Assembly (NCBI GenBank): GCA_022511325.1
Contig: JAFLRU010000004.1
Location: forward strand, 1 to 36,801
Direction of reading: 5' to 3'
DNA: 36,801 nt
Origin: Campylobacter sp.
Lineage (GTDB): Bacteria > Campylobacterota > Campylobacteria > Campylobacterales > Campylobacteraceae
Shown here: piece after piece, positions 24,237 through 28,631 of the stretch
Layout of the letters: each line of letters begins with the position of its first letter
Position numbering within the stretch: the first letter of the stretch is position 1
Program-made: the position numbers and the translations under genes
Notes under the pieces: model-generated
The model's input: the letters and a program-made list of their open reading frames with translations, nothing else
The model's database searches: none
What the model was told of the DNA's origin: nothing

Positions 24237-25076
24237 ATGCAAGAACTTATTTCTTTTATCAAACAAGCGGTTTTACAAATCTCAAATGAGCTTAAATTTC
24301 CAGATACAAGCTATGAAAAAAGTCAAAATCATACGGGTGATACTCAACTTAAATTTGATATTTTAAGTGATAAAATCATCGAAAAAACTCTAAGTAAATG
24401 TCCTAAAATTAAAGCTTTAATCAGTGAAGAAAAAGAAGAAATGCTTATTATCAATGAAGGAGCAGAATTTATCGTTGCTTACGACCCCCTTGATGGCTCC
24501 TCTTTAATGGATGTTAATTTTGCTATAGGTTCCATCTTTGCAATCTATGAAAAAAATCCTAAAGCTTCAAATTTAAAAGCAGCTGTGTATAGCATTTATG
24601 GAGCAAGACTTGAACTTGTAATTTGCGAAGACATTCCTAAACTTTATCGTCTTAATCAAAACAATGAATTTATCTTAGTTAAAGAGCTAAAAATGGAACA
24701 AAAAGGCAAAATTAATGCCACAGGTGGAACACAAAAAAACTGGGATTTAAAACACGCAACTTTTATCAAATCTTTATTTGATGAGGGATACAGATTAAGA
24801 TATTCAGGAGCTATGGTAAGCGATATACACCAAATTTTACTCAAAGGAGGAGGAATTTTTAGTTATCCAGCTACAAAAGATTCTCCACAAGGTAAATTGA
24901 GGGCATTTTTTGAGGTTTTTCCTTTGGCTTTTATCCTTGAAAAAGCTGGAGGTAAAACAAGTAATGGGCAAAATAATTCTTTATTAGAGCTTGAATTTAA
25001 CGATATACATTCTACCACGCCTTGTTTTTTTGGCTCAAATTATGAAATTCAAAAACTTTTAAAGGCTTATCAATGA
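24237..25076 (+). CDS. fbp: Fructose-1,6-bisphosphatase class I
   Basis: [57 protein letters not shown]. Confidence 0.95.
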
Positions 25077-25267
25077 ACGAAAGAGATGAATTTGAACAAG
25101 AAATGGATACAAAAAAAGAACTTTTAGAGCAATGTCAAAGCTCAAAAAACTTAAATTCTTGCTATAATTGTGCTGAACTTTTTGACTGCCTTACGCGTAA
25201 AGATTATGTCGATGCAGTTTATAATAGTATGTCTAAGGGTAAAACCGAAGGCGGATTTGATTTTTAA
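25073..25267 (+). CDS. Small conserved Cys-motif protein (Cj0839-like)
   Basis: 64 aa, ATG overlaps fbp stop (ATGA); [19 protein letters not shown]. Confidence 0.75.
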
Positions 25268-25275
25268 GGAAAAAT

Positions 25276-27156
25276 ATGCGTTATATCACTACACCGATTT
25301 ATTATGTCAATGATGTGCCGCATTTAGGGCACGCTTATACAACCATAATTGCGGATACTTTAGCAAGATTTTATCGTTTGCAAGGTTTTAAAACTTGTCT
25401 TTTAACAGGAACAGATGAACACGGGCAAAAAATAGAACAAGCCGCAAAAGCAAGAAATTTCACTCCTAAAGAATACGCTGATACTATCAGCTCTGAATTT
25501 AAAAAACTTTGGGACTCATTTGAAATCAGCTATGATATTTACGCTAGAACAACAGATTTAAGACATATAGAATTTGTTAAGTCAATGTTCTTAAAAATGT
25601 GGAAAAAAGGAGATATATACAAAGATAAATATGAAGGATTTTATTGTATTTCTTGCGAAACTTTTTTCACTAAAACCCAACTTGTAAATGAAAATTGCTG
25701 TCCTGATTGTGGTAAAAAAACTGAACTTTTAAAAGAGGAAAGTTATTTTTTCAGACTTTCAAAATACCAAGATGCTATTTTAAAATGGTATGAAGAAGCA
25801 GACCCTATTTTGCCTAAAAACAAAAAAACTGAACTTATCAATTTCGTTCAAAGCGGCTTAAAAGACCTTTCTATAACAAGAACAAGTTTTGATTGGGGTA
25901 TAAAACTCCCTGATGAAATAAAAGATGAAAAACACATCATTTATGTATGGCTTGACGCACTTTTTATTTACATAAGTTCGCTTGATTATGGAACAAATGG
26001 AGAAAATGCAAAATTTTGGCCTGCTCATTTGCACTTAGTGGGTAAAGACATTTTGCGTTTTCACGCCATTTATTGGCCTGCTTTTTTAATGAGTGTTGAT
26101 TTACCTTTACCTAAATTTATAGGAGCTCACGGCTGGTGGACTAAAGACGGCGAAAAAATGAGTAAATCTAAAGGCAATGTTATAAAACCTAAAGAAGTTG
26201 CAGATACTTATGGCTTGGAAACTTTTAGATATTTTTTATTGCGTGAAGTGCCTTTTGGAAATGATGGAGACTTTAGCGAAGCTGTGCTGATAAACCGCAT
26301 AAACTCCGAACTTAGCAATGAATTTGGAAATTTGCTTAGTCGCATTATAGGAATGAGCTCGAAATATTCAAATGGTATAATTTCAAATGAAGGAATTTTA
26401 GAAAATTTCAAAGCTGAACTTGATTTAGCGCAGAAATATCTTGAAGATTCCATAGCTTTTTTAGAAAATTTGCAACCTAATCGCTATTTAGAAGAACTTT
26501 TTAAGGCTTTAGGTATTGCGAATTTAAGCATTGCTAAGTATGAACCTTGGAATTTAATCAAAAAAGGTGAAGAGAAAAAAGCTAATGCTTTGGTTGGACT
26601 CTGTGCAAATATTTTGGCTAAAGTAAGTATCTTGCTAAGCCCTACCCTACCAAAAAGCACGCAAAAAGTTGCACAGGCTTTAAATTTTGAGATTAGCACA
26701 AATACCTATCAAGCTTTAATCCTAGAAAAAAAGCTTTCAAATTTTAAAGCAAATGCGTGGGAAGCTTTATTTACTAAGATTGAAAAACCGCTTTTAGCCA
26801 CAAAAACCCCACCGCAACAAGAGCAAGAACAAAAAATCAAAATTGATGATTTTGCTAAAATTGAAATCAAAGTTGCTACGGTAAAAGCTTGCGAAAATAT
26901 AGAAGGAAGCGAAAAGCTCTTAAAATTTCAGCTTGAACTTGAAAATGGGGAGTTAAGACAGGTTCTTTCAGGTATAGCAAAACATTATAAGGCAGACGAG
27001 CTTGTCGGTAAGCAAGTGTGCGTTATTACCAATCTTAAGAAAGCCAAAATTTTTGGCTACGAAAGTGATGGTATGATACTTTCAGCTAAAAGTGGAGACA
27101 AACTTGTGTTAATAGGTCCTAATGAGCTTGTATTAAATGGCTCAACGATAGGCTAG
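25276..27156 (+). CDS. metG: Methionyl-tRNA synthetase
   Basis: TTPIYYVNDVPHLGHAYTTI, KMSKSKGNVI, C-terminal tRNA-binding (EMAP/Arc1p-like) domain. Confidence 0.98.
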   Translation: MRYITTPIYYVNDVPHLGHAYTTIIADTLARFYRLQGFKTCLLTGTDEHGQKIEQAAKARNFTPKEYADTISSEFKKLWDSFEISYDIYARTTDLRHIEFVKSMFLKMWKKGDIYKDKYEGFYCISCETFFTKTQLVNENCCPDCGKKTELLKEESYFFRLSKYQDAILKWYEEADPILPKNKKTELINFVQSGLKDLSITRTSFDWGIKLPDEIKDEKHIIYVWLDALFIYISSLDYGTNGENAKFWPAHLHLVGKDILRFHAIYWPAFLMSVDLPLPKFIGAHGWWTKDGEKMSKSKGNVIKPKEVADTYGLETFRYFLLREVPFGNDGDFSEAVLINRINSELSNEFGNLLSRIIGMSSKYSNGIISNEGILENFKAELDLAQKYLEDSIAFLENLQPNRYLEELFKALGIANLSIAKYEPWNLIKKGEEKKANALVGLCANILAKVSILLSPTLPKSTQKVAQALNFEISTNTYQALILEKKLSNFKANAWEALFTKIEKPLLATKTPPQQEQEQKIKIDDFAKIEIKVATVKACENIEGSEKLLKFQLELENGELRQVLSGIAKHYKADELVGKQVCVITNLKKAKIFGYESDGMILSAKSGDKLVLIGPNELVLNGSTIG

Positions 27157-27157
27157 A

Positions 27158-28105
27158 ATGAATATTAGCAATCTTAGCGAACTCTTAAATGCTTTAGTGA
27201 TTAATGAAGGAAGCACTTTAAGTGTTGGCGGATTTGCTCTAAATTTAAATGAGGTTAAATCAAGCTTTGCATTTTTTTCTAACACCCAAGATGAAGTAGA
27301 AGAAGCAATAAAAAAAGGAGCTTTTGTTGTAATTTCTGATCAAAATATCAAAATTACAGATTTAGAAGTCTTTTATCTTAAAGTTGAAAATTTAGAAAAT
27401 GCACTTTTTAGACTTTTGCGTTTTTTATGCGAAAATAAAGAACTTCATTTTTTGCTTACAAATCACAACGAATTTAATTTTTCAAAGGCTTTTTATTTTA
27501 AAATTTTAAGTGGAAATGTTTTTTTAGATTTTGAGCTTTTAAGCAAAGCAAAAAAGGGAGACTTTTTTTGCTTTTATGATGAAAACTATCTCTTAAAATT
27601 CTGCGTTCATTATGAAAAATTGAAAGAGGTTTCTTATACAATTTTAAATCACTCAAGTTTATTTTATACAAGCTTAATTTGCGAAGATTTATATTTCAAA
27701 AATCTTAATTTTCCTTTTATTTATGCAGAATTTTTTGCTAAATTTATAGCCTTTTTAAAAGAAAAAAAAATAAAACTTGACTTTAATACAAATAAATTAG
27801 ATTTTTTTAAAATTTATTTTGTAAATGAAACTATGCAAATTACGAAATTTGGAGGAAGTTCTAAAACTTTTATTTTGGTCTTTAACGAAATGGATTTTGA
27901 ATTTTTTGAGCAAAATTGCAAAGACATAAAGGGTTTTAAAAGTTCTAGAAAAAATTCTCTTTTTTGTGATTTTTCTTATAATAAAATTGAGGATTTAAAA
28001 AATTTTAAATCTTATACTCATTGTCTTGTTTTAGCAGATAATGAAGAGGATTTTTTAAACTCTTTTAATCCTAAAAAAGAAAAAGAGCCAAGTTTATTTG
28101 ATTAA
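27158..28105 (+). CDS. Hypothetical protein with Mur-ligase-like N-terminus (Cj0837-like)
   Basis: FAFFSNTQDEVEEAIKKGAFVVISDQ...YLKVENLENALFRLLRFL resembles MurE/MurF N-terminal domains; no canonical GxxGKT/S follows. Confidence 0.6.
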   Translation: MNISNLSELLNALVINEGSTLSVGGFALNLNEVKSSFAFFSNTQDEVEEAIKKGAFVVISDQNIKITDLEVFYLKVENLENALFRLLRFLCENKELHFLLTNHNEFNFSKAFYFKILSGNVFLDFELLSKAKKGDFFCFYDENYLLKFCVHYEKLKEVSYTILNHSSLFYTSLICEDLYFKNLNFPFIYAEFFAKFIAFLKEKKIKLDFNTNKLDFFKIYFVNETMQITKFGGSSKTFILVFNEMDFEFFEQNCKDIKGFKSSRKNSLFCDFSYNKIEDLKNFKSYTHCLVLADNEEDFLNSFNPKKEKEPSLFD

Positions 28106-28149
28106 GAGGAGAATTTATTTAGAATTTTTCCCTCATAATAAAAATTCAA

Positions 28150-28631
28150 TGCCTGATTATTTTAAAAGATGAAAGCGAATATCTTAGATTTTTCTTACAA
28201 GAAAGAACGCTAAAAATTTACTCAAAAAAGTTAAAATTGCCCATTTTTTAATTGTCCTAAGCCATAGAATACAAGCTTGGCCTACGATGATAAAATATTC
28301 CAAAAGCAAACAAGGTTACTTAAACTTTCTTTTACACTTGCTAAAATAGCTATTAAATACAAAATTGCAAAGATAATTTATGAAATTTTAAGTTTTTATC
28401 ATCCAAAATTTAGAAGCGACATTGTAGAACAAATTTTACAAAGATATAAAAATTACTCTGAAATACTTAATGCTAAGGAGTATTTAAGTTATAGATTTGG
28501 AGTTAGCACTCATTAAAGCACATAAAACTTGGTATAAAGGTGGTATATTAAACTTTTTAAAGAACTTAAAGGCAATAAAAAAGATTTTATATGATAAAAG
28601 AAACCATTTGCTTAAACTAAATTTAAATTAA
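28150..28631 (+). pseudogene. Decayed surface-polysaccharide glycosyltransferase-like gene
   Basis: Fragments in different frames: LKDESEYLRFFLQERTLKIY (stop), AIEYKLGL (stop), AYDDKIFQ...NAKEYLSYRFG (ORF 28277-28516), then +1 frame ELALIKAHKTWYKGGILNFLKNLKAIKK...LNLN* to 28631. 'SYxLG.ALIKAHKTWYKGG' resembles C-terminal motifs of Campylobacter capsule/LOS sugar transferases. Confidence 0.7.

Follow-up and report, generated by a model that had tools for sequence, protein, structure and literature searches.

A probable Mur-ligase pseudoenzyme encoded behind metG in the Campylobacter/Helicobacter order, with a conserved C-terminal tail that resembles DNA sliding-clamp motifs

The window analyzed here, a whole stretch of 36,801 nucleotides of a Campylobacter sp. 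contig, carries in this order mobB, fbp, a 64-aa ORF, metG, the gene described in this work, ogt (on the opposite strand) and acnB. Our gene occupies positions 27158..28105 of the plus strand, starts with ATG and codes for 315 amino acids plus the stop. Its upstream neighbour on the same strand is the methionyl-tRNA synthetase gene metG (25276..27156), whose stop codon stands one base before the ATG. The 64-aa ORF (25073-25267) is cysteine-containing, overlaps the stop of fbp, lies just 5' of metG and had no Pfam match. On the other side, the stretch between our gene and ogt (28106-28610) contains a 79-aa ORF with a TTG start (28277-28516), also without a Pfam match, that may be a decayed gene. 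The counterpart region is presumably Cj0837c in C. jejuni and HP0418 in H. pylori, and full-text literature searches by these two names found no study of either gene.

The ORF and the peptide segments quoted in the original prediction are present exactly at these positions, and the gene is a real one. Searching with the single sequence, we found orthologues that were full length and free of internal stops in 54 of 59 near relatives. A profile built from the alignment of 20 diverse family members then recovered an orthologue, usually in a single copy, in 189 of the 200 genomes sampled across the Campylobacter/Helicobacter order. In a second sample, chosen by phylum, it was present in 150 of 150 genomes, all of them from this same order. 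A first scan of genome contigs with the single protein as query found nothing, and the plasmid collection that we searched contained no match. The neighbourhood is equally constant on one side: metG was the same-strand gene directly upstream in 125 of the 128 loci for which flanks were available, while the downstream gene was variable. We saw no linkage of the orthologue loci to replication genes, mur genes or cell-wall genes. Its occurrence in 189 of 200 genomes and its place directly after metG (125 of 128 loci) show that the gene is under purifying conservation. Five genomes of a single family (f23; G126, G100, G113, G087 and G073) lacked the orthologue, both behind metG and in a genome-wide profile search, and this may reflect either loss or ancestral absence. 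Besides, two related genomes carried a split or interrupted copy (one at G233:C1:1198342-1198707, the other in G178), possibly by decay or by sequencing error.

The first 93 residues (27158..27436, plus strand) were modelled with a pLDDT of about 95 and correspond in profile alignments to the N-domain of MurE and MurF. The GA(Y/F) strand region is kept, and the domain carries D68xE70 and R88. The window protein alone gave borderline values (E = 0.034 against the murF model and 0.037 against a murE model). Among diverse orthologues, 16 of 20 matched the same murE model, with a best E of 2.9e-7, and the family profile matched MurF 3zl8 (3.1e-4) and MurE 4bub (5e-3) in the PDB, again through the N-domain. 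Thus, the proposed likeness of the N-terminus to MurE/MurF is beyond chance. Two Pfam matches of another kind, to TANGO2 and to an IF5A-like family, were discarded as they fell below the cut-off, and the one to TANGO2 appeared in a single member only.

The predicted structures point in the same direction. AlphaFold2 models of the window protein and of a Sulfurimonas orthologue reached pLDDT values of 86 and 91, respectively. When they were compared to the PDB with Foldseek (E<=0.001), all the matches, 32 of 32 for the window protein and 39 of 39 for the Sulfurimonas orthologue, were Mur ligases or PAP11, a MurE-like protein of chloroplasts; an unrelated fold, which would have refuted the original prediction, was not seen among these strong matches. 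The best TM-score was 0.58, to the MurF of P. aeruginosa. The global TM is moderate and the rmsd large, from which we infer a rotation of the domains plus a missing part of the central domain. What would be left of this central (ATPase) domain spans residues 97-235 (27446..27862, plus strand; the borders are approximate), as judged from the model, Foldseek and profile alignment, and is followed by a C-terminal alpha/beta domain at residues 236-303 (27863..28066, plus strand) that appears colinear with the C-domain of MurF. The original prediction also saw the Mur central-to-C-terminal transition in this half. The Foldseek alignments to Mur ligases, which run full length, support it, and hhalign places the C-terminal half colinearly on MurF, although with a weak score (E about 0.04). 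Taken as a whole, the identity of the protein as a Mur-ligase homologue, nearest to MurF/MurE by fold, is well supported computationally.

The residues on which catalysis depends in the Mur ligases are a different matter. At the place of the P-loop (residues 97-109; 27446..27484, plus strand) the protein reads TNHNEFNF, as had been noticed before, and in the model a strand (97-100) passes through a tight turn at once into a helix (103-109), with no GxxGK(T/S). The pattern [AG]xxxxGK[ST] was found in 0 of 218 orthologues, and the loss is kept across the order, not in Campylobacter alone. In Mur ligases, the D(S/T)R and G...DGH elements of the N-domain bind uridine. The D(S/T)R motif was also found in 0 of 218 orthologues, and the family alignments show a deletion of the DGH loop. 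These genomes have genes for authentic Mur ligases at other loci. Since both the P-loop and D(S/T)R are absent from all 218 orthologues, the protein is very probably a non-catalytic Mur pseudoenzyme, as the original prediction had proposed, and the best explanation of sequence and model together is that it would work by binding. The most conserved residues of the family are A50, G54-A55, D68, E70, R88, F169, F221 and G232, to which L313 and F314 of the tail must be added.

This tail was predicted with low confidence in the AlphaFold model and is probably disordered. In the window protein it finishes with EPSLFD (residues 310-315; 28085..28102, plus strand), an instance of [EQ]x[ST]LF in the orthologue alignment. 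The end of the tail is almost invariant in the family, in the form (E/Q)x(S/T)LF or QL(T/E)L(D/E)F. Specifically, among 88 non-redundant orthologues the tail closes with xLF in 76 and with QLxLx(F/L) in 5, and [EQ]x[ST]LF was found in 35% of 190 orthologue tails compared to 0.14% of 691 control tails. The linkers that precede the motif differ among orthologues, so the tail resembles a short linear binding motif. The D(S/T)R loss, the order-wide distribution and this conserved (S/T)LF tail all go beyond what had been noted for this DNA before.

A conserved ending of the (S/T)LF type suggests that the protein has a binding partner, and our best guess for it is the DNA sliding clamp. There is a co-crystal structure of the H. 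pylori clamp with the peptide QEFIRSLF of DNA ligase, and clamp motifs follow the consensus QL(S/D)LF or QxxL(x)F (PMC4976356). We have examined other proteins of the same bacteria for such motifs. DnaE had xxSLF in 29 of 30 sequences, near residue 941, and SLW in the remaining one. HolA, with a match in 16 of 41 genomes, had xxSLF in all the sequences read. By position, we take these motifs to match the sites with which the E. coli proteins bind the clamp (QADMF in DnaE and QAMSLF in HolA). LigA was tried as a further motif control and rejected, as its xxSLF site was not conserved in the relatives examined and the H. pylori ligase motif was not kept there. The orthologue tails agree with the xxSLF motifs of DnaE and HolA, and the interchange of LF, LxF, LL and LW endings found among them fits what would be expected of clamp motifs. 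Several points speak against the clamp, among them the missing conservation of the ligase motif. The canonical QxxL(x)F spacing was found in only 30 of 88 orthologues, and the motif opens with Glu no less often than with Gln. The linkage seen for the gene is to metG, and none was seen to replication genes. One control tail, that of a chemoreceptor, also reads QQLSLF, and motifs this short are weak evidence for clamp binding. We give about even odds to the tail binding the clamp, DnaN.

Our preferred explanation combines these observations. The protein would be a Mur-ligase homologue that, having lost both its ATP-binding loop and its motifs for uridine binding, makes no peptide bonds. Its flexible (E/Q)x(S/T)LF tail would dock into the protein-binding pocket of the sliding clamp, making it a clamp-tethered adaptor whose Mur-like body holds another partner or ligand. 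To this reading as a whole (Mur pseudoenzyme, binding role, clamp-tethered adaptor) we assign a probability of roughly 0.5. A more specific version, in which a dead Mur ligase was recruited order-wide to link the replication machine to the status of cell-wall precursors or to the control of replication initiation, is in our opinion speculative and rather improbable.

The main alternative keeps the protein in the cell wall. The pseudoenzyme could take part in making peptidoglycan precursors, as a partner or a regulator, by binding MurE or a membrane-anchored MurF and helping to position, scaffold or control it. There are reasons to consider it, starting with the fact that the best fold matches are to MurF. 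The MurF of these bacteria is itself peculiar, with hydrophobic segments, probably membrane-spanning, in place of the N-domain and, except in two shorter frames, a P-loop that lies around residue 160-210 of the open reading frame; our literature searches for a MurF of this kind found no report. Their MurE has a shortened N-domain that retains a DSR/DNS-like motif, and the murE model was matched mostly from position 52-86 on. A protein that has kept the N-domain and lost the ATPase would complement a MurF lacking the N-domain and a MurE in which it is short, and in the strongest form of the argument the pseudoenzyme supplies the missing N-domain of MurF in trans. However, this N-domain is devoid of the D(S/T)R and DGH elements that bind uridine. 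Moreover, the f23 genomes have a short MurE and an N-domain-less MurF (two MurF were read) and yet do not have the pseudoenzyme, so it is not required for MurF. These two facts led us to reject strict trans-complementation of MurF. The idea of a split MurE, with its N-domain lost and provided by the pseudoenzyme, was rejected too, because an N-domain, short but with a DSR-like motif, is still there in MurE. As to the genomic context, the role in peptidoglycan synthesis and cell shape suggested in the original prediction found no backing, since the constant neighbour of the gene is metG and mur genes were not seen at the orthologue loci. We keep a looser partnership with MurE or MurF as the main alternative, although we regard it as doubtful.

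Compared with the clamp-tethered adaptor, a second alternative changes only the partner. The LF tail might dock on another protein, for example a chaperone, a protease adaptor or a MetG complex, and the protein would be a binding pseudoenzyme of some other pathway. Conservation of the tail does not by itself name the partner, and the strict coupling to metG would fit a role near translation. On the other hand, the forms of the motif (LF, LxF, and S/T before L) coincide with those of the clamp motifs in the same bacteria, and we find this option unlikely. Much less probable still is that the protein is catalytically active, its nucleotide site or its substrate having changed. The strong conservation of A50, D68, E70, R88, F169, F221 and G232 is what an active or binding site would give, but every orthologue has another sequence in place of the P-loop segment, and the Pfam and NCBIfam searches gave no other family that binds nucleotides. 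Finally, a decaying pseudogene or mis-called ORF, which the split or interrupted copies of the two related genomes might recall, is already refuted by full-length conservation across most of the sampled families of the order and by the constant neighbour.

Since the gene is coupled to metG and nearly universal in the order to which C. jejuni and H. pylori belong, it deserves further study. If the tail binds the clamp, the replication machinery would have taken over the fold of a cell-wall enzyme; PAP11, in the RNA polymerase of chloroplasts, is a precedent for a Mur-like protein within a nucleic-acid machine. If the partner is instead the unusual membrane MurF, the pseudoenzyme could account for the working of a MurF devoid of an N-domain.

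Among known systems, the closest is MurF, the UDP-MurNAc-tripeptide D-Ala-D-Ala ligase. With the P. aeruginosa (4cvm) and T. maritima (3zl8) enzymes the protein shares the order of the three domains, the sequence of the N-domain, the best fold match and, by a weak alignment, a colinear central-to-C half. It differs from them by the lack of the P-loop, D(S/T)R and DGH, by a shortened central domain, by the extra LF tail and by its length, 315 versus about 450 aa. MurE, the UDP-MurNAc-dipeptide ligase, has the N-domain sequence in common with it (E 2.9e-7), and relative to this enzyme the pseudoenzyme has undergone the same losses. PAP11, which belongs to the chloroplast RNA polymerase, also has the Mur-ligase fold and sits inside a nucleic-acid machine (fold match 8r6s_Q), although it is much longer (a chain of 768 aa) and has another partner. 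DnaE, HolA and the H. pylori DNA ligase share with the pseudoenzyme a short motif of the (S/T)LF type within the same group of bacteria. In contrast to theirs, its putative clamp motif is C-terminal on a Mur-like body and has E or Q at the first position. YabA and Hda, the clamp-dependent regulators of DnaA, would be similar in function if the pseudoenzyme were tethered to the clamp. The pseudoenzyme does not have an AAA+ domain, and the comparison is an analogy only.
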